From Gemmataceae bacterium (GTDB lineage Bacteria > Planctomycetota > Planctomycetia > Gemmatales > Gemmataceae), in NCBI GenBank assembly GCA_026419115.1, contig JAOAAA010000005.1:7776-56629 (forward strand): 48,854 nt of DNA. The letters are read 5' to 3'. Of this stretch, positions 365 to 48,854 are shown one piece after another. Position numbers and translations under genes: made by a program. Each line of letters opens with the position of its first letter. The stretch's first letter is position 1. The notes beneath the pieces are model-generated. The model was not told the DNA's origin, ran no database searches, and was given only the letters and a program-made list of their open reading frames with translations.

Positions 365-2599
365 TCAAGCTGTTTTTCTTTGTTGATTGGCCAAAAAGCT
401 CAAAACAATCCGAATCGAATCATAAGACACCTTTTCCTCTAGGGCAAGGTAAACGGGTTTCATCCGTTCGATCCCATGTTCCTTGGCTGCTTGAGTGATA
501 CGAGCTTCTAACTCACTATCGATCCACGGACGGATACTTTGCGGTTTGCATTCGTAGATGAAGTAACATAGGTAATCGCGGGCGGTTCGCTCGGCGATAT
601 TCAGTATGGCAGCAACCTCTGCGGGGTGTCGCCCCTCTCGATAGAGTGGATAAGATGCACGGGCATTCGCAGGGATGGGCTTGCCAAAAACACTCAGGTT
701 CGAGCTAGGGGGTCCTAGCCCCACATCCATTTCCAGTTTCAAGCTCAAGCAAACCTCGTTCACAATCAGGCAAATTTCGGGGCCATATTCACGGGTCTTT
801 TGAGCAGTCATGCCGTGGATGGTTTGGAGATGAACCACAATACTAGGGCGAATCCTCGATATTTCTCGGAGTACGCGATCCGAAAGAATATGGAACGGGG
901 CCACTTGGTGACGGTCGGCAATTTTCCGACGCCACGAGCGAAGGGCTTCATAAAGTTCGGGCGAAATCCCCTCCCAAGAAGTGTCACGGGCGCGTAATTC
1001 TTTTTCGGCAGACTTACGACTCAAGGTGGCCAAACGCACTTCCTTTTGTCCCCGTAATACTTGCCAACCGAGCGAAGAAATTTTCAAGATGGGATAGTCT
1101 TGACCTTCAGAGATTAACAAGGTTTGTGAAATTAATTGGTTGCACCAAGACCGAATCTCCGAAATGCGGCGATCCTTCAAAATCCCGAAGACGTTGAGTG
1201 AGGTATGGCCGGCCTGTTCCATCCGGTCGGAACTATCTCCATGCAAAAGCTCACAAATGTAGCCCAAACCGTAGCGCTCTTCTGTGCGAGCTACTGCGGA
1301 GAGAATTTTTTGAGCGAGAACGATCGAATCGGGTTCGTAATCGACCTCGGCAAGGCAAATATCACAGGCCCCACAATTGGGAAGGGGATATCGTTGACCA
1401 AAGTATTCAACCAAGGCTTTATGTCGGCATTGAGAACTGACACAAAACGAGTACATCTCATCGACATGGGTCAACATATTCTGTAACGCAGCGGGTTCCG
1501 CACGGCCTTGTTCTGCCGAAAGTTTAATCATCTCCTTACGGGTGTTCACATCTTTTCGGGAGTACAATAAAACACATTCCGCGCTCAGTTGATCTCGCCC
1601 TGCACGACCGGCCTCTTGCTGATAATTTTCGATCGATTGAGGCATTCCAACGTGAACCACAAATCGCAAATCCGGCCGGTCGATCCCCATCCCGAAGGCC
1701 ACTGTGGCTACGACCAGATCGCATTTCCCCATGATGAAGGCATCTTGGGTTTCTTTTCTCTCACGATCGTTGGCTTCTTTATCCTCCTCAGGATGACAAG
1801 CCCGATACCGACGAACATTGTAACCGAGTCCTCGGAGCTTTGCCGTGAATTGATCGACCTCTTTCCGAGACAGGCAATAAATGATTCCCGCCTCTCCCTG
1901 ATGACGTTCCAAAACCGCTAATACCTGCTCAAATGCTTTCGAGCGGGGAATAATCCGATAAGTCAGGTTGGGACGGTCAAAATTCCCAACATACTCAACA
2001 GGGTTTCGTAAAGCTAGTTGATTGAGAATATCCTCGCGAACACGCGGGGTGGCCGTTGCCGTAAAAGCATGGAAGGAAGCCTGAGGGATCAAAGTGCGAA
2101 GTTCTGCCAAACGGCGGTATTCTGGGCGAAAGTCGTGCCCCCATTGAGAAATACAATGAGCCTCATCGATGGCAAATGTTTTCACCCCCAAGGAGACCAA
2201 GTAATCTCGAAATCGATCACTCGAAAGTTTCTCCGGAGAAACGTATAACAGGCGGGCTTGACGCGAATTCAAAAGATAAAATGCCTCTCTTCGTTGTGTC
2301 TCATCCAAAGAACTATCAATCCGCACAGCACAGATATTGACTTCTCGAAGGGAATCGACCTGATCTTTCATCAAAGCAATTAACGGAGAAACCACGACTG
2401 TCAATTCCTCGGAGCGAAAGGCGGCCGGTGCCTGATAGCATAGAGATTTCCCCCCCCCTGTCGGCATAATTACCAAAGAATCACGCCGCTCCAAAATGGC
2501 AGAGATTGCCTTAGCTTGCATGGGTCTCAGGCTTGAAAATCCCCATTTTTCTGCAATCAATCCTAGAAGCTCTTTCGGTAATTTGGGTGAATCTTCCAT
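365..2599 (-). CDS. recQ: RecQ-family ATP-dependent DNA helicase
   Basis: A 744-residue 3'-5' superfamily 2 DNA helicase. Walker A (PTGGGKSLCYQ) is at about residues 46-56, the DEAH box with CISQWGHDFRPEY at 145-161, and motif VI QEAGRAGRD near 328. A zinc-binding cysteine cluster follows at about 386-415, then an RQC/HRDC-type region at about 535-610 and a C-terminal helix-turn-helix block (AEVAAILNIAERTARDYL). This is the long RecQ architecture used in recombination repair and fork restart. I start at the ATG at 2599; a TTG six codons upstream is less likely. The Walker A glycines are encoded through a run of nine C on the plus strand (2450-2458). The nearest upstream gene on this strand is 168 bp away. 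Confidence 0.95.
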   Translation of the reverse strand: MEDSPKLPKELLGLIAEKWGFSSLRPMQAKAISAILERRDSLVIMPTGGGKSLCYQAPAAFRSEELTVVVSPLIALMKDQVDSLREVNICAVRIDSSLDETQRREAFYLLNSRQARLLYVSPEKLSSDRFRDYLVSLGVKTFAIDEAHCISQWGHDFRPEYRRLAELRTLIPQASFHAFTATATPRVREDILNQLALRNPVEYVGNFDRPNLTYRIIPRSKAFEQVLAVLERHQGEAGIIYCLSRKEVDQFTAKLRGLGYNVRRYRACHPEEDKEANDRERKETQDAFIMGKCDLVVATVAFGMGIDRPDLRFVVHVGMPQSIENYQQEAGRAGRDQLSAECVLLYSRKDVNTRKEMIKLSAEQGRAEPAALQNMLTHVDEMYSFCVSSQCRHKALVEYFGQRYPLPNCGACDICLAEVDYEPDSIVLAQKILSAVARTEERYGLGYICELLHGDSSDRMEQAGHTSLNVFGILKDRRISEIRSWCNQLISQTLLISEGQDYPILKISSLGWQVLRGQKEVRLATLSRKSAEKELRARDTSWEGISPELYEALRSWRRKIADRHQVAPFHILSDRVLREISRIRPSIVVHLQTIHGMTAQKTREYGPEICLIVNEVCLSLKLEMDVGLGPPSSNLSVFGKPIPANARASYPLYREGRHPAEVAAILNIAERTARDYLCYFIYECKPQSIRPWIDSELEARITQAAKEHGIERMKPVYLALEEKVSYDSIRIVLSFLANQQRKTA

Positions 2600-2720: not shown

Positions 2721-2730
2721 GGGGGGGGGG
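2721..2730. repeat. Intergenic run of ten G
   Basis: Ten consecutive G lie between the stop of the small membrane protein gene and the start of recQ, 122 bp upstream of the recQ ATG. This is the only tract of nine or more G/C in the window outside a reading frame. Because it lies upstream of recQ, length changes could affect its expression; that is inference only. Confidence 0.9.
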
Positions 2731-5087: not shown

Positions 5088-6734
5088 ATGGCTGAATTGC
5101 AGCATGAATGCGGTGTGGCGGCCCTTTATCATCTCGGTGGAGAAGTCTCTCCGCTAATCCCCGATAGAAACCCTCGGAATGTTTCGCGACTGATGCCGCG
5201 AATGCTCATCGACCTGCAAAATCGTGGGCAGCTGGCTGCCGGAATGAGTACTTTTGACCCCACTCGCCGGCAAATTCTCGAGACCTACAAAGAAATTGGT
5301 ACCGTGATGGAGGCTTTTCGTCTCAGTCGAGAAGACAAGGCGAAAAAGATCATGGAAGAACATCGCGGCATCGCTGCGATAGGTCATGTCCGTTATGCGA
5401 CCTGTGGCGACAACACCCGCTCGTATGCTCAACCTTTTGAGCGAGAGCATGGTTGCCGCTGGAAATGGTTTGCCTTTGCCTTTAATGGCCAATTGGCTAA
5501 CTTCCCCGAACTGAGACGGGATTTACTCAAGCTGTCGGATTATCACCTCACGCGGGATAACGATACCGAGGTGCTTATGCACTATCTCGCGCACGAACAT
5601 CGGGGCGAAGAGCAACCCAATTTAGTCGATTTATTCAGTTCGGCCAGTCAAAAGTTCGATGGTTCCTACAACATTGTTTACCTCAATGCCCTTGGGGATT
5701 TAGTGGTGTTGCGTGACCCGTTGGGGTTGCGTCCTTTGTGTTGGGCGACCGATGGCAAACTCTTCGGGGCTGCCAGCGAGAATGTGCCCCTTGCGAATTT
5801 GGGCTTTACAGAAATTCACAATGTCGAACCGGGCGAGATGATCATCGTTCGGCAAGGGAAAATCCAGCGGCACCGTTACGCGCCGATCCGTAAGCCGGCC
5901 CATTGCTTTTTCGAGTGGATTTACTTCGCCAATGTAGCGAGCAATCTCGATGATCGCAGCGTGTATGTCGCCCGATCGAATTTGGGTCGCGAATTGGCAT
6001 GGCAAGAGATGCGGGCCGGACGGGTTAAACTCGATGGTGATACTATCGTTGTCCCCGTGCCCGATACCGCCAAAGCTGCCGCTGATGCCATGGCTCACGA
6101 ATTGCGGGTCCCCTGCGTTGAAGGACTCATGCGCAACCGAGCCGTGGGACGGACCTTCATTGAAGGGGCCAATCGCATGGATCGGGTGAAACTCAAATAC
6201 ACCCCCCTGCGCGAAGTACTACAAGGGAAGCGGGTTCTTCTCGTAGAAGATTCGATTGTCCGCAGCACCACTTTGCAGGCATTGCTTTCTCACTTACGGG
6301 AAAGGGGGGGGGCCAAAGAAGTTCACGTTCGGGTTGCCTGCCCGCCGATTATTGCCCCGTGTTTTTATGGCATTGATATGTCCACCGTCCGCGAGTTATT
6401 CGCTCCCCGATTTATGCCTCGAATTCAGAAAGGTTGGAAGCCGACTGTCGCCGATCAGGATCGCATGGCCAAAGAACTCGGTGCCGATACCTTAATGTAT
6501 CTTCCTGTCGAGGCGATTGCTCGGAGTCTGAATTTGGATGAGGACCGCCTTTGCCGTGCTTGTATCACGGGTGATTATCCTACTCCGACGGGTGAACAAC
6601 TCTATGAGCTTTCGTTGAAGCAAATCGAAAATGGAAACAACAATGGTTCCTGCCGAACTTACGAAAGCGGCGATTCTTCTGGGATTTTTCCTGCGGTCGG
6701 TACGGTCGATGCCGTCGCCCGAACCACTGGCTGA
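5088..6734 (+). CDS. purF: Amidophosphoribosyltransferase (PurF)
   Basis: Catalyses the first committed step of purine synthesis, moving the glutamine amide to PRPP. The N-terminal class II amidotransferase begins MAELQHECGV, so a seven-residue peptide must be cleaved to expose the cysteine nucleophile. The phosphoribosyltransferase loop reads VEDSIVRSTT rather than the common DDSIVRGTT. Four cysteines in the contexts HCFFEW, PCFYGIDM and LCRACITGDYP match the iron-sulphur cluster ligands of the Bacillus-type enzyme. At 548 residues it is somewhat longer than usual, with extra sequence in the amidotransferase domain and a low-complexity tail. A run of nine G (6304-6312) encodes part of RGGA without breaking the frame. 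Confidence 0.93.
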   Translation: MAELQHECGVAALYHLGGEVSPLIPDRNPRNVSRLMPRMLIDLQNRGQLAAGMSTFDPTRRQILETYKEIGTVMEAFRLSREDKAKKIMEEHRGIAAIGHVRYATCGDNTRSYAQPFEREHGCRWKWFAFAFNGQLANFPELRRDLLKLSDYHLTRDNDTEVLMHYLAHEHRGEEQPNLVDLFSSASQKFDGSYNIVYLNALGDLVVLRDPLGLRPLCWATDGKLFGAASENVPLANLGFTEIHNVEPGEMIIVRQGKIQRHRYAPIRKPAHCFFEWIYFANVASNLDDRSVYVARSNLGRELAWQEMRAGRVKLDGDTIVVPVPDTAKAAADAMAHELRVPCVEGLMRNRAVGRTFIEGANRMDRVKLKYTPLREVLQGKRVLLVEDSIVRSTTLQALLSHLRERGGAKEVHVRVACPPIIAPCFYGIDMSTVRELFAPRFMPRIQKGWKPTVADQDRMAKELGADTLMYLPVEAIARSLNLDEDRLCRACITGDYPTPTGEQLYELSLKQIENGNNNGSCRTYESGDSSGIFPAVGTVDAVARTTG

Positions 6735-8124: not shown

Positions 8125-9111
8125 GGCAGGTTTACGGAGTTTCCAGATCAGGCCGTCGTAGGTGTAATGGAGAAAGGCCGCCCAGACATTCAAGGCTAGC
8201 CAAGTTCGCATGAGTGCCCCCCCCCCGCTATCGGCCCAGACTCCTACTAATCCCAAAACAACCAAATAAACCGACAGAACAATGACCCATTGACCGGCGA
8301 CCTTGCGGAATAGCCCATCGCTACCGATGGTTTTTCTTCGCATCGCATAATGGCTCACCACGGCCAGATATTCCACGGCGTGAAAGGTGCTTACGGCAGC
8401 CGTGAGAGCAATTACCCCCGAACGCCAATCGTGACTAAGGCTTTGTAAAAGTGCCGAGTACAAAAGAAGAACACTGGTTAGGTAAGCCAGTTTCCCCAGC
8501 CGAAACATCGTGACTTGGGAGAGATTGACCAAAAGGATGAGCAGCGGAATCGCCAGCATCGCGAGATCGAAAGAACGTAGCCACTCTTTCGTAGATGAGG
8601 TTTCTGCATCCATCCAACCGGTGAGCCAACCGGCCGTTCTTAAAAGCACATAAACCAAGAAGCCCCTCAGGGCATGCCGTTCGAGCCATACATTTCCCCC
8701 CCCTACCTTTCTGGTGTACATCCGCAGAACACCTTGATGTTGAGAAGCGAAATGCCAAGCATTCCAAACATAATCAATTAGTAACAGGCACATGAGTGAT
8801 TGCGTGGTGAGCCAAACTCCGCCCACAATCGCGGCCGAAATTAAGGCAATGCCGATGAAAAGTTTCCCCCTGCCTTCCCGACGGTCTGAATCCGAGGCGA
8901 CGAGAAAAAGAGTAATCCAGCGATGAGGGGTCGTAATGAAATAAATCTGCCAAAACTCCGTTTGTAAATGACCATCAGAACGCATTAGACCTGGTAAAAG
9001 TAACAGGGGCCATGCTAGGTTAATGAGAAAAAGAAGATCGAATAAAGGAGAAACGATCCAGCCAATGCTCGATGAGGGAGGGGGTAGAGTTTGTGTTGTG
9101 GTCATTCCCAT
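8095..9111 (-). CDS. Histidine-rich polytopic membrane protein
   Basis: A 338-residue integral membrane protein with about eight hydrophobic segments. Histidines and acidic residues cluster beside the segments: TPHRWITLF, WHFASQHQGVLR, FHAVEYLAVVSHYAMRR and FLHYTYDGLIW. Such spaced histidines resemble membrane di-iron or haem-binding proteins and recall Brp/Blh-like oxygenases, but I do not recognise the family. I start at ATG 9111, four bases after the lipoprotein gene stop, rather than an upstream start overlapping it by 50 bp. It is the middle gene of a lipoprotein, membrane and TPR run. Runs of ten C (8217-8226) and eight C (8696-8703) encode Gly-Gly-Gly and keep the frame. Confidence 0.75.
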   Translation of the reverse strand: MGMTTTQTLPPPSSSIGWIVSPLFDLLFLINLAWPLLLLPGLMRSDGHLQTEFWQIYFITTPHRWITLFLVASDSDRREGRGKLFIGIALISAAIVGGVWLTTQSLMCLLLIDYVWNAWHFASQHQGVLRMYTRKVGGGNVWLERHALRGFLVYVLLRTAGWLTGWMDAETSSTKEWLRSFDLAMLAIPLLILLVNLSQVTMFRLGKLAYLTSVLLLYSALLQSLSHDWRSGVIALTAAVSTFHAVEYLAVVSHYAMRRKTIGSDGLFRKVAGQWVIVLSVYLVVLGLVGVWADSGGGALMRTWLALNVWAAFLHYTYDGLIWKLRKPATARALGVTS

Positions 9112-9115
9112 TCGA

Positions 9116-14250: not shown

Positions 14251-14282
14251 TGGGAAAAAAGAATCAGGCAAGGTTATTATGG

Positions 14283-15212: not shown

Positions 15213-15643
15213 GATCGGCCTCGGTCAATTATTAAAATGAGAAATTACTCATGAGAATACGGGTTAGAATGAAAGGTTGTCAATAGAAAAATGAGAAATT
15301 TTCTCAGAATTTTGGGTTAATTCCTACCTCACGTTCTCATCATTGCCATCCCGCGAGTATGATCCCAACGAGCGACCCCGATTTCTTCCCCACGTTCTCA
15401 CAAGTGTTGCCAAACGAACGCGGAGATGGACCGAGTCTTTTGTTTCAAAAGATGAAGGTGAACAGTGCTGCGAAATAATCTAGGAGCTTGTACGAGTCCT
15501 GCACCGAGCGCTATCTCTGTAATGTTCCCTATGAGCGCTGCTACCGCATAATCTAGGAGATTGACCCATTCTGAAAATTTTCTGTACGAAATGATCTGCC
15601 TACCCCCACTATTTAGGGAAACGGTTCTCTAGGGGGGACTTTC
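15213..15643. other. Intergenic region with degenerate repeats
   Basis: A 431-bp divergent region. ATAATCTAGGAG occurs at 15475-15486 and 15548-15559, exactly 73 bp apart. A diverged related block, GAGCGCT, lies at 15506-15512 and again at 15533-15539, suggesting about three decayed units. The region should hold the promoters of the DUF1559 gene and of the anti-sigma-like gene, but no clear elements were found. Confidence 0.6.
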
Positions 15644-17625
15644 GTGCGACTGACCTTACGAACTCTATTGGCTTATCTTGATGATGCTTTACCACCAGCA
15701 GAAACTAAACTCATCGGCGAAAAGCTTGCCGAATCGGAATATGCCCAAGAGATTGTCGAGCGTATCAAAACGGTGACCCGCCGGCGACGAGTCACGACTC
15801 ATGGGATTAATGAACGGGAAGCCAACGTCGATCCCAACACCGTGGCGGATTATTTGGATAACGAACTTTCTCCTGAAGCGATCGAAGAATTTGAACGCGC
15901 CGTTCTGCAAGACGACGCACTGTTGGCCGAGGTAGCCGCTTGCCACCAGACGCTTTCGTTAGTGGAACGGGAACCTATGGTGATTCCACCGGCTGCGAAA
16001 CGTCGGATGTATCGCTTAGTCAAAGGTAAGGAATCGCAACCTTTTCGGAAACCGAAATCGAATCTTCCTGTGGTGGGCGCACAAGAACCCCCGACCGAGG
16101 AAGACGATGACCTTCTCAAAGTCTTTGCTTTCAATCGAACTTTTGTTCCTCTGCTCGTTCTCATCGGCCTTGTGGGGGTGTTAATTGTGATGGCTTGGCT
16201 GGCGATTCCCGAGACGGATCGGAGTCGCCCGCACGAGATTGCTTGGGCGTATGTTCCACCTACTTTTACCCCCCCCCCGTGATACCGATTCCTGAAACTC
16301 CGAAAAAAGAGGAGAAAAAATCTCCCCCAGTTATTTCTCCAACTGTCGAAGTGGGGCCGATGCCCCGAGTGGTCGATGGCTCAGGAAAACCGCTTCCCAA
16401 ACCAATTGAAGCTCCTCTTCCCGATCGTGCCGTTGTGGGAACTTGGGAAAGCGAATCAGGGGCCTTGCTGGTCCGCAAACGAGGTGAAACCAAATGGACT
16501 CAAGCCGAAGCCGCTGAGAAAAAAATTAGCTCGACCGATACTTATTTGGCTCTGCCCGGCGTCAACGCCGAAGTGCTTACCAAAACGGGTGTAAAAATAT
16601 CGTTGGAAGGAAACCTGCCGGAATTAGTTCCGGTGAACTTCCTTGAGACCCGCGTATTATTCCATATCCCTGCCCCCGATTATGATGCGGATATAACGCT
16701 TCAAGCAGGTCGGATTGTGCTTAAATTAGATAAAGGCAAGAAAACGGCCCGCATTGTCCTTCGTGTGCGTGATGAGGCTTGGGTGATTACCCTGAACGAA
16801 GAGAAATCGGAACTCGTTGTGGATTTGACCTATCGTTGGTCCACCGATCCGAAAATCGATTTCGATGAAGCTCCGCGAACCCTTGTTTATCTCGGGGTTC
16901 TGGAAGGGAGTGCCTCGTTACGTAGTGGTTTCAAAGAATTTGCTGCCCTGAAACCGGGCGATAAATTAAAATGGGACAGCACTGGAGCCGCCATTCAATT
17001 TGCTCCGTTACGAGATGAAGACGATCCGTTGGGTTTCCTCGATCGTTGGCTAGCGAAACCTCCTGTTCTCTCAAAGGAAGCCGATACGGTTTTGAAAACC
17101 ATTTTGAAAGACCTGAAGCAACAAATGGGACCTTTGGATATTACATTCTCGGCCCCCATGAAAAACGAAAAAGAAGTGCTGACCCGTCGGCGTTGGGCCC
17201 CGTTGTTTTTACAAGCGATCGATGAAATGGCCTATGTGGTCGAAGGATTACAAAGCGAACGGGCCGAGGTGCGTGCCTATGCTTGTTTAGCCTGCAAGCA
17301 TTGGGCCGAACAGGGATTGGGTCGAGAAACCCTTTTGGCAAATCACCTGATGAAAGAACTCAGCTTAGACAAGGCCGAGGCCTTCCGAGCTGTCAGGCTT
17401 CTTCGGCCGGTCAATCTCAAGCAAATCAATCCAGCTGAGGTCGATCGTATCTTTGCTCTGTTAAGGGACCCGAACCTCGCGGTACGTGAAATGGCCCGAT
17501 TCTCTTTGGCGAATGCCGACCCCATCGGTTTCCGTGAAAGTGGTTATGAGAGCGGCGCCCCGAAAGAACGATACGAAATGCAGGCTCTTCGATGGTATCA
17601 ATCTTGGCAACGTCGATTCAAATAA
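15644..17625 (+). CDS. Anti-sigma/FecR-like transmembrane protein, frameshifted at a poly-C tract
   Basis: One gene split between two frames. The first part (15644-16282, GTG start after AGGGGGG) has two tandem helical modules, YLDDALPPAE at residues 11-20 and DYLDNELSPEAIEEF at 69-83, resembling anti-sigma cytoplasmic domains. One membrane segment follows at 167-188 and then a proline linker. A run of ten C (16269-16278) leads straight to TGA in that frame. The next frame continues without a start codon from VIPIPETPKKEEKK to 17625, giving about 448 more residues: a second proline linker, a FecR-like strand region and a helical HEAT-like end. Eleven or eight C would restore one protein of about 660 residues. 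Sequencing error, phase variation or slippage are all possible. Confidence 0.8.
16269..16278 (+). repeat. Run of ten C at a frame break
   Basis: Ten C encode Pro-Pro-Pro in the linker just outside the membrane segment of the surrounding gene. With ten, the upstream frame ends at TGA 16280-16282. With eleven (or eight), it joins the long downstream frame. Confidence 0.9.
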
Positions 17626-17637
17626 TCCTTGATTCTG

Positions 17638-17690
17638 AGTGAAATTGACCCCGTTCTTATTCCCAGAGGCGTTCGGGTGAAAAATTGACC
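17638..17690. repeat. Pair of related sequences after the FecR-like gene
   Basis: AGTGAAATTGACCCC at 17638 and a diverged copy GGGTGAAAAATTGACCGCC at 17675 lie about 38 bp apart, just after the stop at 17625. They fit the gene-end duplication seen elsewhere, although the match is short. Confidence 0.45.
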
Positions 17691-17761
17691 GCCTGCTGGT
17701 CCGGTTTGTAGGATAAACACACACAATAATGCCATAGCAAATCTTATTTAGGGAACAGGGT

Positions 17762-18445: not shown

Positions 18446-18449
18446 AAGG

Positions 18450-20045: not shown

Positions 20046-20091
20046 GAGATGAAACCAAGGTTAAAAGGGCGTTGGAATCGCCTTTAGTGTA

Positions 20092-22812: not shown

Positions 22813-24012
22813 ATGGATTCTCTCACGCAACGACGTCCCCAAACAATCTCGGAGATTGGTGAATTAGTCAAGCAGGCGGCGGCCGAAGGATGGGCTTTGT
22901 ATCCCCGAGGGGGGGGGACACAATTCGATTACGGGTACCCGATTGAGAAAGCAGGGATGATTGTGGAATTAGGAGAAATCCGAAAGGTGATCGATTATCC
23001 TGCTCGGGATATGACCATCACGGTTCAGGCAGGAATGACCCTTGAGGAATTGTCCCAAGTTCTGCGTCAAGAAGGTCAAGAACTCCCTGTGGATATTCCC
23101 TTAGCCGAACGGGCCACAGTAGGAGGCGCGATTGCGAGCAATGCCAGTGGACCACGTCGATTTGGCTGGGGAACGCTGCGAGATTATGTGATCGGTATCA
23201 GTTTAATCAACGATCAGGGAGTTGAGGTGAAGGGGGGGGGGCGGGTCGTCAAAAATGTGGCGGGATACGATTTGATGAAACTGCTGACCAATTCTTGGGG
23301 AACTTTGGGAATCATTACCCAAGTGACCTTGAAGGTGCGTCCCTTAGCCGAGAATCGTCAGGCAATCTTGATTCCTTGTGAGTCAACCGACCTTGCTACA
23401 CTTTGGGAGTTAGTTCGCACAACCAAAACACGTCCCGTTGCTTTTGAGATTCTTTCTCCGGAAATTCCTTTGTTTGCGGCAGATACAGGCAGTGGTTGGC
23501 GTGTCTCGATTGCTTTTGAAGATAACACACCTTCGGTCGTTTGGCAGGTCAAAACATTTTTAAGCGAGTTACCTGCTGCTCTCGAAAAAAAGGCACAGAT
23601 TCATTCCGAGGCTAAATATCTGAAATCGTTGAATGATCTCACCGATTTCCCCTTCCAGATCGAGCAATCCACCGTCCTGAAAGTGAACGATCGCCCCTCC
23701 CGAGTGGTCGAGTTCGCTTTGTCCTTTGCTGAGAATTTTCCTTGTCATGTGCTAGGAAGAGCTGGGAATGGTATCCTGTACGTGATACTCAAACAAGGAT
23801 ACGAGCAAGAGGTTGGTTCGATTCAATCGCGAATTCTGCAACAAATTTCTCCGGAAGGGAACTGCATCATCCAAAATTGTTCGGAACAAGTGAAACGAAA
23901 CTTACTCGTTTGGGGCAAGGAAAAACCCGACTGGGGATTGATGCGGGCCGTGAAAAAAGCTCTGGACCCCCAAGGGATATTTAGTCCCAACCGATTTGTC
24001 GGGAGAATCTAA
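22813..24012 (+). CDS. glcE: FAD-binding oxidase subunit, glycolate oxidase GlcE-like
   Basis: A 399-residue flavoprotein of the PCMH (FAD_binding_4) family. Conserved segments are YPRGGGTQFDYGYP, VQAGMTLEEL, TVGGAIASNASGPRRFGWG and GRVVKNVAGYDLMKLLTNSWG, with a closing LDPQGIFSPNRF. In GlcDEF complexes this subunit binds FAD and works with GlcD and the iron-sulphur subunit GlcF to oxidise glycolate. Neither partner is in the window. Start ATG 22813, divergent from the small membrane gene. Two G runs, nine at 22909-22917 and ten at 23232-23241, fall in glycine-rich segments and preserve the frame. Confidence 0.85.
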   Translation: MDSLTQRRPQTISEIGELVKQAAAEGWALYPRGGGTQFDYGYPIEKAGMIVELGEIRKVIDYPARDMTITVQAGMTLEELSQVLRQEGQELPVDIPLAERATVGGAIASNASGPRRFGWGTLRDYVIGISLINDQGVEVKGGGRVVKNVAGYDLMKLLTNSWGTLGIITQVTLKVRPLAENRQAILIPCESTDLATLWELVRTTKTRPVAFEILSPEIPLFAADTGSGWRVSIAFEDNTPSVVWQVKTFLSELPAALEKKAQIHSEAKYLKSLNDLTDFPFQIEQSTVLKVNDRPSRVVEFALSFAENFPCHVLGRAGNGILYVILKQGYEQEVGSIQSRILQQISPEGNCIIQNCSEQVKRNLLVWGKEKPDWGLMRAVKKALDPQGIFSPNRFVGRI

Positions 24013-24874: not shown

Positions 24875-26875
24875 ATGTCACCGACTCATCCGCCGAACAA
24901 ATCTTCCCACCCCGCTTCCCACCCCACGAGTTTTTGGCTTTGGGTGATGTGCTTAACGGGGGTCGATTACTTTAGTACCTTGGGTTATCAACCCTCGATT
25001 GCGGTCAAAAACGTGGGAGCGTTAGCCCCCCTAGCAACGATCGTGCTAGTTTTCGTCACTCTTTTTGGGGCGTTACCCGTTTATCGTTACGTTGCAGGCC
25101 GATCCTTTGAAGGACAAGGCTCGATCGGCATGCTGGCCCGATTGGTGAGTGGTTGGCCCGGCAAAATTCTCGTTTTGGTTTTGTTAGGGTTCGCTGCGAC
25201 CGATTTCGTTATCACCAAGACCCTTTCTGCAGCCGATGCCGCCGAGCATGCGATTAACAATCCCAATTGGCCTTTAGCGCACGATTCCGAAGGGAGTCAT
25301 CGTCAACTGATGTTAGTTACCATGCTCCTACTGGTACTGTTGGGAGCCACCTTCCTGAGAGGATTCAAAGAGGTCATTGGGCTGGCCGTGGGAATTGTGG
25401 GTGTTTATCTCGCTTTGAATCTGATTGTTATCGGTTCCGGCTTATTCTTTATTATAGAGCATCCGCATGTTTTGGCGGACTGGTGGCATCAAGTCCGAGT
25501 GGGGGAGTGGTATTTGGAATCATCGCCGTTAAAATCGCGAGAGATGTGGGCGACCGCAGCGGTATGTTTGATTCTTTTCCCCAAATTGGCCCTTGGTCTT
25601 TCTGGGTTTGAAACCGGTGTCGCTGTCATGAGTCTAGTGAAAGGAGACCCTAGCGATACTCCGGAAAATCCCGCCGGAAGAATAAGAAACACTCGGAAGC
25701 TCTTGTTCACAGCAGCACTGATTATGTCCTGTGCGCTATTTGGTTCATCGTTGGTCGTCACCACTCTCATTCCGCCGAAGGATATTCTGGGGGTCGATGC
25801 TCAGGGGCAACCGATTGAAGGGAAACCGAAACTCCCTGCGAACAATCGGGCATTGGCTTATTTGGCCCATGCCGAGGACCCGAATAAGGTCGTATTAGGG
25901 GGGGGGGAAGTTCTTGGAACCATTTATGATATTAGCACAATTGTGATACTTTGGTTCGCCGGTGCCAGTGCCATGGCGGGGCTATTGAATTTGGTTCCAC
26001 AATATCTTCCGAAATACGGCATGGCGCCCGAGTGGGCTAGGGCGGTGCGCCCTTTGGTGCTGCTTTTTACGGCGATTAATCTCGGGGTGACTTGGATTTT
26101 CGAGGCCAGTGTCGATGCTCAAGGGGATGCTTACGCCACGGGGGTATTGATGCTCATGACCAGTGGCTGTGTGGCTGTCCTGATTGACATTTATCGTTCA
26201 CGGGAAGGGCGTTGGCACCGAAGAATCTCGCTTCCGTTTGCCTTGATTACCCTATTGTTCATTTACACCACATTGAGCAACATCATCGAGAAACCCACGG
26301 GAATCAAAATTGCTAGCTTTTTCATTCTGACCATTTTGATCACCTCCTTGATTTCGAGAATTGCTCGGAGTCGCGAACTGCGATTTTCAGGATTTCATAT
26401 TCCCGATCCCGAATCCCTGTTACTTTGGGATGCCATCCGGCACATGGAACTTTCGGTTCTGGTTCCCCATAGACCGGGGCGGCGTTCGTTAGAGGAAAAA
26501 GAGCAAGTCATTCGTCGGGACCATCGTCTGCCTCCCGAGATATTTGTGGTTTTCATCGAGGTGGAACTTTCCGATGCGAGTGAGTTCAACCAAATGCCGA
26601 CATTGCAAGTCCGTCAAGAGCAAGGCAGATTTGTGATGAAAATCTCAAATGCAGCGTCGATTGCTCATACACTGGCTGCCGTTGCCCTAGAAATGGCCAA
26701 AGTCGGGAAACCCCCTGAAATTCACTTCGGTTGGACCGATGAAACCCCACTGAGTGGAACCTTGGGATTCATCCTTTTTGGGGAAGGGAACGTGCCTTGG
26801 ATGGTTCGAGAATTGATTCGCAAAGCCGAACCGAACCCCGAGAAACGTCCCCTGATCATTATTGCAGGGTCCTAG
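24875..26875 (+). CDS. KimA/APC-type transporter, probably K+ or amino acid
   Basis: A 666-residue membrane protein with about 12 transmembrane segments and a 200-residue cytoplasmic C-terminus. The start of helix 1 reads [15 protein letters not shown], followed by [24 protein letters not shown] and [19 protein letters not shown]. That pattern is close to the APC-superfamily members annotated as amino acid permeases and to the K+ importer KimA. Later signatures are [12 protein letters not shown] and [24 protein letters not shown]. Substrate specificity cannot be decided from the sequence. A run of ten G (25898-25907) encodes LGGGE in a loop. Confidence 0.8.
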
Positions 26876-27667: not shown

Positions 27668-28597
27668 ATGTTTCGTTCCCTTCTGAAGAAGCGATCAGGC
27701 TTCACGCTGATCGAGCTTCTTGTGGTGATCGCCATCATCGCTATTTTGATTGGTCTGTTGCTTCCTGCGGTACAAAAAGTCCGCGAAGCTGCCAACAAAT
27801 CCACCTGCAGTAACAACCTCAAACAACTGGCACTTGCTGCACACAACTACGAAAGCGCCAACGGTGTGCTTCCCCCCGGCTTCAACAGCAGCTCCTATTG
27901 CGGAACCTTGGCTTATCTGCTTCCCTACATCGAACAAGATGCGATTGCCAACTTAATCCCCCAACCTATGTTGTCTCCGACCAACACGGCCGGCGTGTGG
28001 TGGGGGGGGGCGTGGACCGCTGCTAACAACCGAATTAAAACCTTCATGTGTCCTTCCGATGCAACCTATGCCTCGGTTTCTTTGGGCGTGTTTGCTTACT
28101 TCACGACTTCTGGGACTACTTTGACGGGCGGCTATTTCGGTGGGGATTTGCCCACTCTCGGTCGAACCAATTATGTGGCCGTTGCAGGCGCTTTGGGTGA
28201 CACAACTGCTACCCCATGGAACACCTGGCGGGGAGCCTTTTTCGTGAACTCCCAAATCACAATCGCTGGTATCCCTGATGGCAGCTCCAATACATTGTTC
28301 TTTGGTGATTATCTTTGCACTCAAACATCTCCTACCACCACCCGTCAATTTGCTGCGAGCTGGATGGGTGCAGGGGCCATGGCTACCGCTTGGGATGTTC
28401 TTTCTCCCGGACAGTGGTATGCCTTTTCAAGCCGACATCCTGGACGAGCCCAATTTGCTTTCGGTGATGGTTCCGTCCGTGCGATTACCAACGCCGGTTC
28501 CAGCACACCTTGGTACACCGCACGGTGGTATGCATTCCAACAAGCTGCGGGAACTTCAGATGGAGCAGTGGCCAACTTCTCCTTATTAGGTGGTTGA
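27668..28597 (+). CDS. DUF1559 protein with prepilin-type N-terminus (3)
   Basis: A 309-residue exported protein with the prepilin signal [19 protein letters not shown] and the [17 protein letters not shown] block. The C-terminus carries RAQFAFGDGSVRAI. GGAGG 7-8 bases before the ATG at 27668 fixes the start. A run of nine G (28002-28010) encodes WWGGA and stays in frame. It is followed by a clear terminator and then a lipoprotein gene, so read-through rather than tight coupling would be needed to co-express them. Confidence 0.93.
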   Translation: MFRSLLKKRSGFTLIELLVVIAIIAILIGLLLPAVQKVREAANKSTCSNNLKQLALAAHNYESANGVLPPGFNSSSYCGTLAYLLPYIEQDAIANLIPQPMLSPTNTAGVWWGGAWTAANNRIKTFMCPSDATYASVSLGVFAYFTTSGTTLTGGYFGGDLPTLGRTNYVAVAGALGDTTATPWNTWRGAFFVNSQITIAGIPDGSSNTLFFGDYLCTQTSPTTTRQFAASWMGAGAMATAWDVLSPGQWYAFSSRHPGRAQFAFGDGSVRAITNAGSSTPWYTARWYAFQQAAGTSDGAVANFSLLGG

Positions 28598-32107: not shown

Positions 32108-32210
32108 TATCCAATAACCTGCTATCGATCCTTCTCGATATAAAGGGTTCTTGTTTCGGAATTGTTCCACTTTGGGGGGGGCCTGCCTCGGAAGCAGAAC
32201 CGAAGGTTCC

Positions 32211-33710
32211 TTAAGCCTCGGGACGAAGGAGCGGGAATAAAATCACATCGCGGATGGTCTGAGTATTGGTCAATAACATCACGAGCCGATCGATGCCGAT
32301 CCCTAATCCTCCTGCGGGGGGCATCCCATGTCGTTGCGCTAAAATGAAATCGTGATCCATTTTGGCCATCGAATCTTCTTCGGGCAAACCTGCTAATTGT
32401 CGTTTGAATGTTTCTTCTTGAGTGAGAGGATCGTTCAACTCGGTGTAGGCATTTGCGAGTTCCATCCCGTGAACATAAAGTTCAAATCTCTCGGCGATTT
32501 TGGGGTTTTCTCGTTTCCTCTTCGTTAAAGGGCACAAAGCAGCGGGATAATCATAAACAAAGACAGGGCCGACCAATTTATCTTCCACGCAAGCCTCGAA
32601 CAATTCGTGAACCCGAACATCGTGCTCCTTCGTTAGGACATCCTTAAGCCGCATGCGTTGGGCAGCTTGAAGCACCTCGGCTTCGTTGTGCATATCACAA
32701 CCAACGTGTTCTCGGAAAAGGTCCTCGTACTTGGCTCGTTGAAACGGAGGATTGAAATCGATTGTTTTATCGGCCCAAGGTCGCACTCGGCCCCCCCCCA
32801 AGGCATCGACACAGGCCACCAGTAAATTTTCTGTCAGCTCCATCATCGAGCGATAATCCCCGTAGGCTTGATATAGCTCCATCATCGTAAATTCGGGGTT
32901 ATGCTTAACGCTGATGCCTTCATTGCGAAACACCCGCCCGATTTCATAAACCTTTTCTAATCCGCCAACGAGCAGGCGTTTCAGGTGTAATTCGAGGGCA
33001 ATCCGGAGGAACAGATCGATATCCAAAGCATTATGGTGCGTGGTGAAAGGTCTGGCCGCTGCCCCGCCCGCGATGGCGTGCAAGGTAGGGGTTTCGACTT
33101 CCATATATCCTTGATTGTCCAAAAATTGTCGGATCGTGCGGATAATCAACACCCGTTGTTTGGCCCGTTGCAAGGTCTCGGGGGTATGAATCAAATCCAA
33201 ATAACGATGGCGGAGACGAAACTCGATATTCTCCATCCCGAAATAACTGGTGGGATGGGGTTCCAACGATTTTGAGAGAATGGTAATTTTCTCGGCTCGA
33301 ATGGAAAGCTCTTGTTTGCGAGTTTTGCCGAACACCCCTTCTACACCAATTAAGTCCCCAATATCCAGTAAATTGACGAGTTTCCAACACTCTTCCCCGA
33401 CTTGTTTTTGGCCGATCATGATTTGGATTTTTCCGGTTTGATCCCATAAATCCAAAAAGAATAATTTTCCTTGGTCTCGTTTCTGAATAATCCGACCGGC
33501 GGCCTTGACCTGTTCGGTTGGATGGTCATCGAAAGCGACTACGGGTAACTCGCGGATTTTTGCGATCGGTTGATGTCCGTCGAAACGTCCCCCCCAAGGA
33601 TCAACGCCCAATTCCTCAATCTTTCGTAATTTCTCTAATCTCACGGCACGGAGGTCCGCTCCTGAGTGGGATGCTCCGGAATCGTTAGAACTGTTGTGTT
33701 CTGTTGACAT
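32211..33710 (-). CDS. lysS: Lysyl-tRNA synthetase, class II
   Basis: A 499-residue enzyme charging tRNA-Lys. An N-terminal OB-fold anticodon domain (KIQIMIGQKQVGEECW) precedes the class II core: motif 1 near GYMEVETPTLHAIAGGA, motif 2 VYEIGRVFRNEGISVKHNPE and motif 3 GLGIGIDRLVMLL. Length is normal. It converges with prfB. A run of nine C (32791-32799) encodes DALGGGR and keeps the frame, showing that long tracts occur even in essential genes here. Confidence 0.97.
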   Translation of the reverse strand: MSTEHNSSNDSGASHSGADLRAVRLEKLRKIEELGVDPWGGRFDGHQPIAKIRELPVVAFDDHPTEQVKAAGRIIQKRDQGKLFFLDLWDQTGKIQIMIGQKQVGEECWKLVNLLDIGDLIGVEGVFGKTRKQELSIRAEKITILSKSLEPHPTSYFGMENIEFRLRHRYLDLIHTPETLQRAKQRVLIIRTIRQFLDNQGYMEVETPTLHAIAGGAAARPFTTHHNALDIDLFLRIALELHLKRLLVGGLEKVYEIGRVFRNEGISVKHNPEFTMMELYQAYGDYRSMMELTENLLVACVDALGGGRVRPWADKTIDFNPPFQRAKYEDLFREHVGCDMHNEAEVLQAAQRMRLKDVLTKEHDVRVHELFEACVEDKLVGPVFVYDYPAALCPLTKRKRENPKIAERFELYVHGMELANAYTELNDPLTQEETFKRQLAGLPEEDSMAKMDHDFILAQRHGMPPAGGLGIGIDRLVMLLTNTQTIRDVILFPLLRPEA

Positions 33711-37137: not shown

Positions 37138-38550
37138 ATGCCAAAATCACATTGGGTCTTTTTCTGTGCGTTGCTCCTGCCTTTGACAGCGAAGGGTCAA
37201 GGTGATCGGTACGAATTAGGGCTTCGGGTCCGAATGCTCGAAGAAGTTTTCGAGACGAAAAGAACCGATGAAACTGCCAAGAAGCGGGCCTGCGACCCGA
37301 CCAATAAAGCCGTGCAATCATTCTTTTCCTTCAATTTTCAGCAGGCCTCCAAAAATCTCGATGTAGCCCGATATGCTCTCCTCTCCGAGAAACCAGTTCC
37401 GGAAGCGGTACAATATGCGGAAACCCTTACGCTTCGTGCTGTGTGCCGTTGGGTCGATGCCCAAGATTCCGAAATCGCTTTCACGGTGAATCCTTTTTAC
37501 AAGTTGGAAGGAAAAACGCCCGAGGGGCTCACCGCTCGAATCAAGGTCGCTAACGGAGGCTGGAAAGAAAGCGAACTTTCTAAATTCCCTTTGACGATTT
37601 TGTATCCTGCGAAAGAATTGGGCGAGACCCTTGGGGATTTGCCCGTAGTGTTGGAAATTCGGCAAAAGGATCAGGTTTTAGCGACCCGTAAAACGAGCAT
37701 CTCTCGAACAAAAGATTTGGCGGCCCGATTAAATCGCTTGAAAGAACATAAAACGGAATTGCCTGCCTTAGAAAAGGCCACCGTTAGCTCGTTAATTAAA
37801 TTGTTAGAGGACCTTGCGAACAAAGGCTCTCCGGAAACGGAGTACCCCGCCGATCGACTGCTGAAGGAAGTGGAAACCATCGTAGAGAAAAAGAACAAGA
37901 CGGGAGAGTATTATGGGGTGAATCAATCGGGGCAATTTTGGCTGACCGTCCCGATTGCGAAAACCACGGCACCGATTCGGATATTTATCCCGAAAGGTCT
38001 GGCCAAAGATAAAAAGGTTCCTGTGGTGGTCGCACTGCATGGGGCAGGGGGCAGCGAAAATATGTTTTTCGATGCCTACGGGGCAGGAATCACGCAGAAA
38101 TTATGTGAACAGCGTGGCTGGATCATGATTGCAACACGGGCTGTGGGAGCCTTCGGCGTTGGGGGAGCGCCTAACGTAAACGAGATTATCGAAACTCTTT
38201 CGCAGCGTTATCCCATCGATCCCCAAAAGGTATTCTTAGTAGGTCACTCGATGGGGGCCGCTCATACTTTGCAACTCGCTCAAGCGACACCAGAAAAATA
38301 TCGGGGGATCGTCATCTTGGGGGGGGGGGGGGCACCCCGAAAAGAAGATGCCCTCAAAGCAGTGCCTGTGTTTGTAGGTGTGGGAGTGGCGGACTTTGCC
38401 CTGTCGGGGGCCAAATCTTTGGCTAATGCGCTCAAGAAGGTCGAAGGACAAAAGCTAGTCTACAAGGAATATGCGAACATTGAGCATTTATTGATCGTGC
38501 AAGAGGCCGCTCCTGAATTCTTCCAATTCTTTGATGATCTCGTGAAGTAA
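37138..38550 (+). CDS. Exported alpha/beta hydrolase (esterase/PHB depolymerase-like) with a 14-G tract
   Basis: A 470-residue secreted hydrolase with a signal peptide (WVFFCALLLPLTAKGQ). An N-terminal helical region of about 250 residues of unknown function precedes the alpha/beta hydrolase domain. The oxyanion region is VVVALHGAGGSENMFF, the nucleophile is S371 in GHSMGAAH, and D419 (VADFALSG) and H450 (NIEHLLI) are plausible triad members. A run of 14 G (38319-38332) encodes ILGGGGAP after the nucleophile strand and is in frame. With tract length divisible by three only by chance, one added or lost base would truncate the protein. Confidence 0.8.
   Translation: MPKSHWVFFCALLLPLTAKGQGDRYELGLRVRMLEEVFETKRTDETAKKRACDPTNKAVQSFFSFNFQQASKNLDVARYALLSEKPVPEAVQYAETLTLRAVCRWVDAQDSEIAFTVNPFYKLEGKTPEGLTARIKVANGGWKESELSKFPLTILYPAKELGETLGDLPVVLEIRQKDQVLATRKTSISRTKDLAARLNRLKEHKTELPALEKATVSSLIKLLEDLANKGSPETEYPADRLLKEVETIVEKKNKTGEYYGVNQSGQFWLTVPIAKTTAPIRIFIPKGLAKDKKVPVVVALHGAGGSENMFFDAYGAGITQKLCEQRGWIMIATRAVGAFGVGGAPNVNEIIETLSQRYPIDPQKVFLVGHSMGAAHTLQLAQATPEKYRGIVILGGGGAPRKEDALKAVPVFVGVGVADFALSGAKSLANALKKVEGQKLVYKEYANIEHLLIVQEAAPEFFQFFDDLVK
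38319..38332 (+). repeat. Run of 14 G in a secreted hydrolase gene
   Basis: The longest homopolymer of the window. It encodes Gly-Gly-Gly-Gly between the nucleophile and the acid residue of the hydrolase domain. Runs of this length are prone to slippage in other bacteria. Confidence 0.95.
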
Positions 38551-39958: not shown

Positions 39959-41359
39959 TCAGACGATTCTCAAGCTACGAAGAAGCAAAACCAGTGTGAA
40001 GCTGATGAGAAGGGGGGGGGCAACTCGTTTCATCAAAGTGAAGGGATCGACCCCCGTCAGTTTGCCACACATCAAAGCAACCGCTGCGACCGGTGACATG
40101 GTGCGACCTAATGCGGACGCAACCGAAACGGTAGCGCCGATTTCAACAGGATTGACGCCACTTTCTTGAGCGGGGGGAACAAAAAAAGCAAAAAGGGCCT
40201 GAGTCGAGGCCATGCCCGAACCGCTCAGGGTGGCAAAGGCCCAAGGCATGATGCCCGCGGCCGGAAGAAGCAAGTTGGGCACTGCCGTGATTACCCCCGT
40301 CAGGATTTTAGCTAACCCGACAATTTCAATCGCTTTGCCAAAACAAGAAGCCACCACAATCAGCGAAACCACCTCGGTAAAGGCATAGCCTGCTCCTTCA
40401 AAAAACGCTTTGGGTAATTGCCAAGTGGTTTTGGGGGAGGACAGAGCAACCATCGCCACACCAAACAGCATCGCCAAACCAATCAGACGGGTTTCAAAGG
40501 CCGGATGTTTTTTGGCCATCGTGAAAGCAGGGCCGCCGATCGCCAAGGCAGGGGCCTCGGGAGCCGGTACGAGGTAACGCTCGGGAACATGGAATAAATC
40601 GATCGGCGGGCTAGCCAACGTCAAAATAATTAAAGGAAGCAGGGGAACAGCCGCTTTGAAGTAGTTGATCCGAAAGGTTTCTCCCGAGCTGGATTCCTGC
40701 GGAAGGGGCGCAGGGCTTTCGGGGGGGGAGATTTTTTTCTCGTGGCGAATCGTGAAATACCAAAAAAGAATGGTCGAAAACATCAGGTGTGGCAGCAACA
40801 ACGGGATAACCTCACTGCGTACTTGACTAGGCCGAAGGTCGAGGCGTCCCCCTACGGTCAGTAGTTCCGGTGCCCCAAGGTTGAGCAATTCCCCGCCGAT
40901 CGAAGATCCAAGGAGTAGGGTAGCCCCGATCGTGGCTGAGGAAAATCGGGCCGCAATCAATAAGGGAACAATCACCGCGCCTAGACAAACGGCCGTCGAG
41001 GTTTGACTAATCACGGGGATGTTCACCACGAAACCAATCAGGATGGTGCCCGGAATCAGAAAGAATCGGAGACGTTGGATCGGTTTGACCAATAACCGGA
41101 CCAAATGCACATCGCATTCCGCTTTTCGCATCGCATAGGCAAAGCCCATGGCACAACAAATGGGGACCACGAATCGTTCGTTGCTAAAGGTGGTGAGAAA
41201 TTCGCGAACGATAGGCGCTATTTCACCGGCGATCCCCCCCAGAACGAGGGCAGTGACACCCAGCACCAATCGGACATCCACTTTCCGCCACACCGCATAA
41301 CCGGCCCCCACAATGACGATGATACTGGCAAAGGTCGAAATAACGGCTAAGCCATCCAT
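39959..41359 (-). CDS. dcuC: C4-dicarboxylate carrier of the DcuC family
   Basis: A 466-residue membrane carrier with about 12 segments. The C-terminal half matches DcuC in order: SGSGMASTQALFAFF, SGVNPVEIGATVSVASALGRTMSPVAAVAL and KRVAPPLLISFTLVLL. The first half has the paired hairpin region LLGSSIGGELLNLGAPE. DcuC exports succinate or exchanges C4-dicarboxylates; exact substrates are not certain. The start is ATG 41359; a TTG 15 bases upstream is less likely. A run of nine G (40012-40020) lies in the final Pro-Pro segment, and one of eight at 40721. Confidence 0.8.
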   Translation of the reverse strand: MDGLAVISTFASIIVIVGAGYAVWRKVDVRLVLGVTALVLGGIAGEIAPIVREFLTTFSNERFVVPICCAMGFAYAMRKAECDVHLVRLLVKPIQRLRFFLIPGTILIGFVVNIPVISQTSTAVCLGAVIVPLLIAARFSSATIGATLLLGSSIGGELLNLGAPELLTVGGRLDLRPSQVRSEVIPLLLPHLMFSTILFWYFTIRHEKKISPPESPAPLPQESSSGETFRINYFKAAVPLLPLIILTLASPPIDLFHVPERYLVPAPEAPALAIGGPAFTMAKKHPAFETRLIGLAMLFGVAMVALSSPKTTWQLPKAFFEGAGYAFTEVVSLIVVASCFGKAIEIVGLAKILTGVITAVPNLLLPAAGIMPWAFATLSGSGMASTQALFAFFVPPAQESGVNPVEIGATVSVASALGRTMSPVAAVALMCGKLTGVDPFTLMKRVAPPLLISFTLVLLLRSLRIV

Positions 41360-41967: not shown

Positions 41968-42879
41968 ATGGGACCAGGAGAAACACTGATCGAGTATGGC
42001 GTAGAGATCGACGCACAAACGATGGTCACCCCGCCTGATACGACGGAACTCGAACTCGAACCGGGACACCCCGGTTTGGGCGATACTGCCTATGTGGAAC
42101 GGCGAAAAGAATTATTTGCTTTGACGCGGAAACATCGTTTAGAAAAACTCGGCCCCCCCCTGATCGATTATCTTCCCGAAGAGACCCGTATTTGGCGCGA
42201 GGTAAGCCCCCAACTCGATGCTCTGCACGTCAAATATGCCAGTGAAATTTACCTGAAGGCCAAACGGGACTTGGCGATCACGACGGACAGAATCCCTCAG
42301 TTACGTCACATCAGTCAACGGCTGGAACGAGAAACGAATATCCATTTGGTCCCTGCAGAGGGGGCCTTGCCTTACCGTACCTTCTACGAGTACATCGGTC
42401 AACGCGGGTTTCCGGTCACCCAATTTATCCGGCATGGTTCCCATCCGGAATTTACACCTGAGCCGGATATGATTCACGATTGCTTGGGGCATGTTCCCCC
42501 GTTGATGAATCGAGACTACTCTGAACTATTGGTGTTGATTGGTAAGGCCGCATCGATTGCCACCAAAGGGGAACATGTTTTGTTCCTGAAACGATTCAGT
42601 TGGTTCAGTATCGAATTTGGTTTAATCCAAGAAGGTTCGGAAGTGAAAGTTTTTGGAGCAGGTATTCTCTCTTCAACGGGTGAAATCCCCCATTCGCTTT
42701 TTTCACCCGAAGCACGACGGCGCCCCTTTAACACCGATGTCGTCATTCACACCGATTATGACCCCTCGAAAATGCAGGTCGATTACTTTATTGCCCCCTC
42801 GTTCAATTTCCTGAGACACGAATTGACCCAGCTCATCAAGAAGTTGGGCTTGCCGGTGGAATGCCCTCCCGTCGATTGA
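41968..42879 (+). CDS. phhA: Phenylalanine 4-hydroxylase-like aromatic amino acid hydroxylase
   Basis: A 303-residue non-haem iron enzyme that oxidises aromatic amino acids using a pterin cofactor. The iron ligands are two histidines in PDMIHDCLGHVPPL and the glutamate in WFSIEFGL. RHGSHPEFTPEPD and KVFGAGILSSTGEIPHSL are family hallmarks. Bacterial PhhA proteins have about this length. Phe to Tyr conversion is the most likely reaction, although Trp hydroxylase cannot be excluded. No pterin dehydratase gene is adjacent. A run of eight C (42153-42160) encodes LGPPL. Confidence 0.88.
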   Translation: MGPGETLIEYGVEIDAQTMVTPPDTTELELEPGHPGLGDTAYVERRKELFALTRKHRLEKLGPPLIDYLPEETRIWREVSPQLDALHVKYASEIYLKAKRDLAITTDRIPQLRHISQRLERETNIHLVPAEGALPYRTFYEYIGQRGFPVTQFIRHGSHPEFTPEPDMIHDCLGHVPPLMNRDYSELLVLIGKAASIATKGEHVLFLKRFSWFSIEFGLIQEGSEVKVFGAGILSSTGEIPHSLFSPEARRRPFNTDVVIHTDYDPSKMQVDYFIAPSFNFLRHELTQLIKKLGLPVECPPVD

Positions 42880-47754: not shown

Positions 47755-48854
47755 TTAGCGTTGTTTTTCCAGCCCTGTTAAAGTACCTGTGGTCTTCGCA
47801 GGGACCAAACCGGCAGCGCCAATTTGATAGACCATTTTATCTGAGGTGATCTCGCTCCAGTTTCGACCATGTTTGGATCTGAGTCGCACGTTCCCTTTCA
47901 TCAGGACTTCTCCCGTAGCCGAGATGACCGTAAGTTGATCGCAGGTTCCTTCGATTCCAGGTCCTGAGAATTTCACATTGCCCGAGGAACTCACGCCCAC
48001 GAGAGGCGATTTTCCTTCGGGGTTTTGCATTTCGATTTTATTCCCGCTGACCTTCAACAATAACTCGTCAAGGCTGGTGTTACGAATCTCGAAACGGGGT
48101 AACCCCGAATCGAGACGGACCAACATCTTCAACTTGCTCAAATCGTTTTTTGTGGTGGTGGCTTCCGCAGGCTTGACTTCGCTGCTCCCCGATTTTGGTT
48201 GGAAAGAATCGACGTTTCCTCCTCCGAGTTTGGGAACATTCTCCTCCATCGGCTCGGGACGTGGGGTGGTGGGGAGTGGTTTCGTCGGCTCGATGGGAGG
48301 AAATGGAGGAGTTTTCGGCTTTTCGCTGGACGGCTCGGTTTTCGGAGCTTCTTCCACAGGAACGACCGGCTTAGGCGCGGTGGGGGTATCTGGGAAAGAA
48401 GGCAGCGTGGGATCAATCCCCTTCAGTGGAGGGGGGGGGGTATCTGGAAGTGTTGGTACTTTCGGATCGGGCAATTTTATGGGTTCCTTGTTCTCCACCG
48501 GTTTGATCGGTGCCGGCGATTCCAACGGGGGCAGCGTGGGGGTTGCTGATTCGACCTTATTCGGAAGGGCGGGAGCCTTTTCTCCTTTAAGCTCGGGAAG
48601 GGGGGGCAGGGGAATTGGGTCTTCCGAACCTTTCACGGGTTCCGGGATCGGCTCGAACTTAACAGGTTTGATCGGAGCGGGGCCTGTTTCTGTGGTTTCG
48701 GTTTTGGCCTTGCTTGGGAGGCTGGGAACCACAAAGTTCAGGTCATCGGTCGTGGGCACCGTGTTAGGCGAGGATTTTGTATCGGCCCCATCGGTTCTTG
48801 GAACCGTCAGCAAGGGTGGCAGTTCCGCAAGGGGAGTGGTATTCGGGGTTGGTG
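47755..48854 (-). CDS. Proline-rich protein with LptA/OstA-like C-terminus (5' end outside window)
   Basis: The frame is open to the window edge, so the N-terminus is missing. At least 240 residues are low-complexity Pro/Lys/Thr/Glu (repeats such as PTLPPLESPAPIKPV), likely an extended periplasmic or cell-surface linker. The C-terminal 120 residues are strand-rich (GNVKFSGPGIEGTCDQL and VLMKGNVRLRSKHGRNWSEI), resembling the LptA/OstA fold that carries lipopolysaccharide; this is a pattern impression. A run of ten G (48431-48440) encodes four prolines in the linker. No signal peptide can be judged. Confidence 0.6.
   Translation of the reverse strand, partial: PTPNTTPLAELPPLLTVPRTDGADTKSSPNTVPTTDDLNFVVPSLPSKAKTETTETGPAPIKPVKFEPIPEPVKGSEDPIPLPPLPELKGEKAPALPNKVESATPTLPPLESPAPIKPVENKEPIKLPDPKVPTLPDTPPPPLKGIDPTLPSFPDTPTAPKPVVPVEEAPKTEPSSEKPKTPPFPPIEPTKPLPTTPRPEPMEENVPKLGGGNVDSFQPKSGSSEVKPAEATTTKNDLSKLKMLVRLDSGLPRFEIRNTSLDELLLKVSGNKIEMQNPEGKSPLVGVSSSGNVKFSGPGIEGTCDQLTVISATGEVLMKGNVRLRSKHGRNWSEITSDKMVYQIGAAGLVPAKTTGTLTGLEKQR

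Follow-up and report, generated by a model that had tools for sequence, protein, structure and literature searches.

Long runs of C or G are usually avoided in bacterial genes. The genomes of Campylobacter, Helicobacter and Neisseria have tens of C/G tracts, which lie mostly in genes for surface structures or for modification. The poly-G and poly-C contingency genes of these bacteria (PMC6321876, PMC2823697, PMC8355987) resemble the genes that we describe here in having intragenic tracts of about 8-11 bases, some of them with loss of the reading frame. A survey of 99 prokaryotes found that poly(C) and poly(G) of more than 2 bases are generally under-represented in coding genes, that poly(C) and poly(G) of 7-8 bases are over-represented in 11 and 9 of the 99 genomes, respectively, and that A/T tracts are over-represented and biased to the 5' ends (PMC2831843). 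In Mycobacterium smegmatis, about 3% of the cells with a C9 reporter are frameshifted (PMC10159617). The genome of the Gemmataceae bacterium, an uncultured planctomycete, differs from those of Campylobacter, Helicobacter and Neisseria in having about 1,100 tracts that are evenly distributed and mostly in frame, with ValRS, DnaK-like and FabH genes among their carriers; compared with the survey, it has a strong excess of C/G runs, and these favour no part of the gene.

The window, by which we mean the whole stretch of 48,854 nucleotides that was analysed, contains a FecR-like gene whose reading frame, as assembled, is broken in a Pro linker at a C10 homopolymer (16269-16278, Table 1). The upstream open reading frame begins with GTG, encodes 212 amino acids by its translation, and passes from the C run through a single G to a TGA at 16280-16282. 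The downstream frame is free of stops over 448 codons (16279-17622). Codon-usage scoring of the 240 bases on each side of the run places coding sequence on one strand but in two frames, and together with the sequence this bears out an earlier note, made from the letters alone, in which a C10 with an immediate TGA was followed by a second frame open to 17625. The same note held that the downstream frame lacks a start. A GTG does lie at 16279, immediately 3' of the run, against the letter of that claim, but on our own reading no ribosome-binding site is visible at this GTG.

Table 1. Positions in the window of the parts of the FecR-like gene and of the C and G runs of at least 8 bases.
Feature	Position	Strand	Basis
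C9, in frame, recQ-family helicase gene (minus strand); encodes conserved PTGGGKS motif	2450..2458	+	Run and gene scan
G10, outside gene proxies	2721..2730	+	Run scan
G9, in frame in ORF 5088-6734	6304..6312	+	Run and codon-usage scan
C10 within ORF 8095-9165 (minus)	8217..8226	+	Run scan
C8 within ORF 8095-9165 (minus)	8696..8703	+	Run scan
Upstream half: two zf-HC2-like helical modules and membrane helix	15644..16282	+	ORF; Pfam; ortholog conservation
zf-HC2-like stretch, residues 69-85	15848..15898	+	Pfam and alignment
Transmembrane helix, residues 167-188 (FVPLLVLIGLVGVLIVMAWLAI)	16142..16207	+	Sequence reading; equivalent hydrophobic segment in orthologs
C10 run, frame break, Pro linker	16269..16278	+	Run counts and codon-usage scan
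Downstream half, 448 aa: Pro/Lys linker, FecR-like beta domain, HEAT-like helical domain	16279..17625	+	ORF; orthologs; AlphaFold
FecR-like beta domain, residues 52-234 of downstream half	16432..16980	+	Foldseek
HEAT-like helical domain, residues 252-447 of downstream half	17032..17619	+	Predicted secondary structure; family HEAT matches
G9 within FAD-binding protein gene 22600-24012	22909..22917	+	Run scan, Pfam
G10, FAD-binding protein gene 22600-24012	23232..23241	+	Run and codon-usage scan
G10 within ORF 24875-26875	25898..25907	+	Run scan
G9 within ORF 27668-28597	28002..28010	+	Run scan
G8, intergenic	32174..32181	+	Run scan
C9, in frame in ORF 32211-33710 (minus)	32791..32799	+	Run and codon-usage scan
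G14 within hydrolase-like gene 37066-38550; longest of sample	38319..38332	+	Run scan, Pfam
G9 within ORF 39959-41374 (minus)	40012..40020	+	Run scan
G8 within ORF 39959-41374 (minus)	40721..40728	+	Run scan
C8 within ORF 41968-42879	42153..42160	+	Run scan
G10 within ORF 47755-48813 (minus)	48431..48440	+	Run scan

The upstream and downstream halves are one ancestral gene that is broken only at the C run. Loci of the family were drawn from public genomes by a motif scan for the N-terminal module and the 80 best-matching loci were kept. The reading frame is intact, up to the contig limit, in all 80, and 76 of them run to at least 500 residues (median 724); in all 41 loci where tblastn could recognise the two halves, they share a frame. 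These two counts uphold the earlier proposal of a single gene with its sole break at the run. Sixteen orthologs align across the whole architecture, with the start and both N-terminal modules conserved (MRLTLRTLLAYLDD...), and in their alignment the linker at the equivalent of the break is rich in Pro and Lys and variable in length. The break lies about 20 residues past the membrane helix, and the description of its surroundings as a tolerant Pro linker fits what the orthologs have there. Just one of the 76 family members of at least 500 residues has a C/G run of 8 bases or more. In the Gemmataceae bacterium genome the downstream half is single-copy, and it can be aligned over its full length to its best relative at 35% identity. 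A protein search of contigs from other genomes found no close relatives, and the neighbour genes of the window were recovered in almost none of the 80 family loci, so the neighbourhood is not conserved. The motif scan found 316 relatives in all. The family, of Planctomycetia, consists of FecR-like/HEAT transmembrane proteins whose N-terminal motif is RLTLRTLLAYLDD, and its members come from sources that include Zavarzinella formosa, Limnoglobus, Gimesia and Schlesneria.

The protein shares with FecR/PupR regulators its cytoplasmic anti-sigma-like modules, one membrane helix and a periplasmic beta domain that is predicted to have a PupR-like fold. AlphaFold modelled the downstream half, from an alignment of 41 rows, with a mean pLDDT of 90.9 as a beta domain followed by a helical tail. 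When the beta domain was compared with the PDB by Foldseek, the PupR signalling domain ranked first (6ovk, E 6.7e-5) and BDI_1681, a Parabacteroides anti-sigma factor, second (4m0h, E 1.2e-3). The tail matches HEAT repeats, by Foldseek too, and HEAT matches occur in 8-9 of 41 family members. This extra HEAT-like tail sets the protein apart from FecR/PupR regulators, as do the want of a FecR Pfam match, in the downstream half in the window and in the 41 family members alike, and a degenerate zf-HC2 stretch without a visible zinc motif. A weak match to DUF4880 appears in one of the 41 in Pfam. The single Pfam match in the upstream half is a weak one to zf-HC2 (residues 69-85, E 7.6e-5), where inspection by eye shows no Hx3Cx2C zinc motif and the family motif is LAEVAACHQ, so that the stretch is not assigned to ZAS. 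The two anti-sigma-like modules that the earlier note had read here are therefore unequally placed: one coincides with the zf-HC2 match while the second is recognised solely through conservation in the family. The arrangement in that reading, with cytoplasmic modules, a membrane helix and an extracellular FecR-like sensor, agrees with the orthologs and with the AlphaFold and Foldseek results. In the orthologs a single open reading frame encodes the cytoplasmic anti-sigma part, the one membrane helix and, recognised by fold only, the periplasmic FecR domain; here this layout extends across the break. By predicted fold and by layout, the protein is like a FecR/PupR-type transmembrane regulator, although it stands outside the FecR sequence profile. 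A Pfam scan of seven neighbouring ORFs (12702-21383) found no sigma factor or TonB receptor among them; one had no match and the others match an HhH-GPD base-excision repair protein, a tRNA pseudouridine synthase, DUF1559, a flavoprotein, a radical SAM protein and MurB. The FecR-like/HEAT family is widespread and conserved in Planctomycetia, is apparently uncharacterised, and may act as a sensor.

The run in the FecR-like gene has many counterparts. There are 17 C/G runs of at least 8 bases in the window against about 1 predicted from base composition, with 2 C10 and 4 G10 runs against expectations of about 0.02 and 0.03, and A/T runs are not so enriched. We extended the count to a 559-kb sample of the genome made up of the window and 40 contig stretches selected without regard to tracts. 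C/G runs of 7, 8, 9, 10 and 11 bases number 61, 44, 50, 50 and 6 in that sample, where 32.5, 7.9, 1.9, 0.5 and 0.1 are expected, and A/T runs fall off steadily with length without a hump at 8-10. Scaling from the sample to 4.26 Mb gives an estimated 1,100 or so C/G runs of at least 8 bases genome-wide. The 389 exact C9 runs (91 per Mb) place this genome first among 95 genomes of the family and among 392 sampled Planctomycetota; the respective runners-up have about 18 and about 57 per Mb, the latter being G452. Tract density is 0.297 per kb in gene proxies versus 0.268 per kb outside them, the hump at 8-10 is present in both, and within genes the tracts are spread evenly from start to end. The assembly is a draft of 323 contigs in which 10 tracts lie within 400 bases of contig ends versus 8.6 expected, and as contig ends are not enriched in tracts, the breaking of contigs at longer runs was rejected as the cause of the cut-off at length 10.

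Codon choice indicates how the runs may arise. Where no G follows, 26% of Gly codons have G as their third base, a share that reaches 85-86% where at least 6 G follow, and the third base of Pro codons is C in 40%, rising to 92-97% as the following C run lengthens. Three consecutive Gly residues are encoded as GGGGGGGGG in 64 cases versus 5.1 expected and three consecutive Pro residues as CCCCCCCCC in 40 versus 8.2, the AAA triplets going in the opposite direction. The shift reaches conserved motifs of essential genes: PPPNVTG of valyl-tRNA synthetase is written with CCC CCC CCC in this genome and in 0 of 32 others, DLGGGTF of the DnaK type is written with GGG GGG GGG in 2 of the 3 copies here and in none among the other copies listed, and tracts also lie in frame within FabH, MnmA and RecQ-family genes. 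A mutational tendency would thus appear to convert C/G-rich stretches to pure runs, chiefly at synonymous third positions. Because the synonymous shift towards the base of the run is found everywhere, conserved motifs included, a general process explains the tracts and a set of switches does not. That such motifs should be filled with C/G runs in a free-living lineage points to an unusual mutational process. Loss of mismatch repair was rejected as its cause since MutS1 and MutL are both present above the cut-off, which keeps the genome out of the mismatch-repair-deficient class. A Y-family DNA polymerase was also rejected, for PF00817 was not found in this genome, whereas most relatives have one.

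In the assembly, tracts of this length go with changes of reading frame. The frame changes at 10 of 113 scorable C/G tracts of at least 8 bases compared with 37 of 2,637 random positions (1.4%; P 1.3e-5), and at 1 of 210 runs of 6-7 bases. Three of the 10 raw changes (L054, L105 and L117) are gene boundaries and not breaks. At least six genes are split: the FecR-like gene and those for GcvPA, a Gfo/Idh-type oxidoreductase, a Ser/Thr kinase, an AsmA-like protein and a polyketide-synthase-like protein. For the last two, the names come from our own reading of the sequence. The GcvPA gene (L065:3951-4934 and upstream, contig C100) is split at a G8 tract and its contig has an ambiguous base; the kinase gene (L104:13400-16227, contig C278) is split at adjacent C8 and C10 runs just before its membrane helix, a layout that recalls that of the FecR-like gene. 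About half of the tracts are unscorable, and about 91% of the scorable coding tracts are in frame. Free drift of tract length would put two thirds of the tracts out of frame, and the probability of 10 or fewer in 113 is then 8e-38. Frame changes are far fewer than free drift predicts, so the frame is strongly maintained.

These findings make it probable that the FecR-like gene has undergone one length slip among many slip-prone tracts, either in the cells or as an error of the consensus. A genome-wide tendency, acting mainly where the third base of a Gly or Pro codon can change without effect on the protein, would produce unmixed runs of C or of G some 8-10 bases long, and such runs, which slip in other bacteria, are presumably slip-prone in this organism as well. 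Selection would hold most tracts in frame and leave a few percent out of frame at any moment, in cells or in the consensus, with the FecR-like gene as one of those few. Cells in which it is out of frame would make only the cytoplasmic modules and the membrane helix, while in-frame cells would make the full sensor. Slippage that varies the length of this C10 is plausible; of an evolutionary placement of the run here as a switch there is no sign.

One form of this slip is that the cells carry an in-frame tract that the short-read consensus has miscounted. We regard this as a real possibility, though not as the probable one, and since it is a sub-case of the length-slip reading, the confidence expressed in the latter covers it and the two overlap. 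A draft of 323 contigs allows for such errors, the broken tracts include that of a metabolic enzyme, GcvPA, on the contig with an ambiguous base, and the downstream frame of the FecR-like gene is undecayed in a gene that relatives conserve unbroken. On the other hand, the share of scorable coding tracts that are in frame implies that counting is generally right, and the tracts do not gather at contig ends.

That selection keeps the C tract as a contingency locus, to switch the sensor between truncated and full-length forms, was the suggestion of the earlier note, and it is improbable. A C10 is long enough to slip and its length sets the frame; it is placed just outside the membrane in the tolerant Pro linker, the 448 codons beyond it have no stop and no decay, and in the kinase gene a comparable pair of C tracts lies just ahead of the membrane helix (L104:14431-14450). 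But some 1,100 like tracts exist genome-wide, even along genes, equally dense outside them and mostly in frame, and comparable tracts sit inside the motifs of essential genes, which together tell against the switch. All 76 family members with at least 500 residues are unbroken and just one has a C/G run of 8 bases or more; the tract of the FecR-like gene is not enriched or maintained above the genome background, and orthologs have no long tract at the site. Single-tract calls of phase variability therefore need the genome background to be checked first.

Slightly less probable again is a fixed loss of the gene, making it a pseudogene in this lineage: the frame is indeed broken at C10, but the downstream half has no further stop, shows normal codon use and retains its full-length alignment at 35% identity. 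The weakest candidate is programmed recoding, in which -1 slippage of the ribosome on the C run, or slippage of RNA polymerase, yields both products; the tract is shaped like a slippery run and a stop lies immediately 3' of it, yet neither the break nor a long tract is conserved in the 76 family members, 41 of 41 loci are single-frame, the RNA structure downstream is unremarkable (z 0.19), and other coding tracts are mostly in frame in the DNA, which suggests that the genome does not rely on slippage.

It is conceivable, though we hold it only tentatively, that the genome-wide process keeps a standing fraction of cells frameshifted at the 1,100 or so tracts, in sensor and essential genes alike, as an untargeted stochastic heterogeneity. 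Frameshifting at C runs in mycobacteria (glpK; the C9 reporter, PMC10159617) offers a parallel, in that its 3% or so of slipped cells resembles the share of genes that are split here; mycobacteria differ in being without MutS/L, whereas the Gemmataceae bacterium genome has MutS1 and MutL and is without a Y-family polymerase match. A literature search on Planctomycetes gave no report of such tracts among the matches listed. G012 was considered as a second poly-C-rich genome for its high overlapping C10 count, but in sampled stretches its histogram has no hump and it holds a few long runs instead. High C9 densities are found in other, scattered Planctomycetota genomes, namely G452, G198, G238 and G131.
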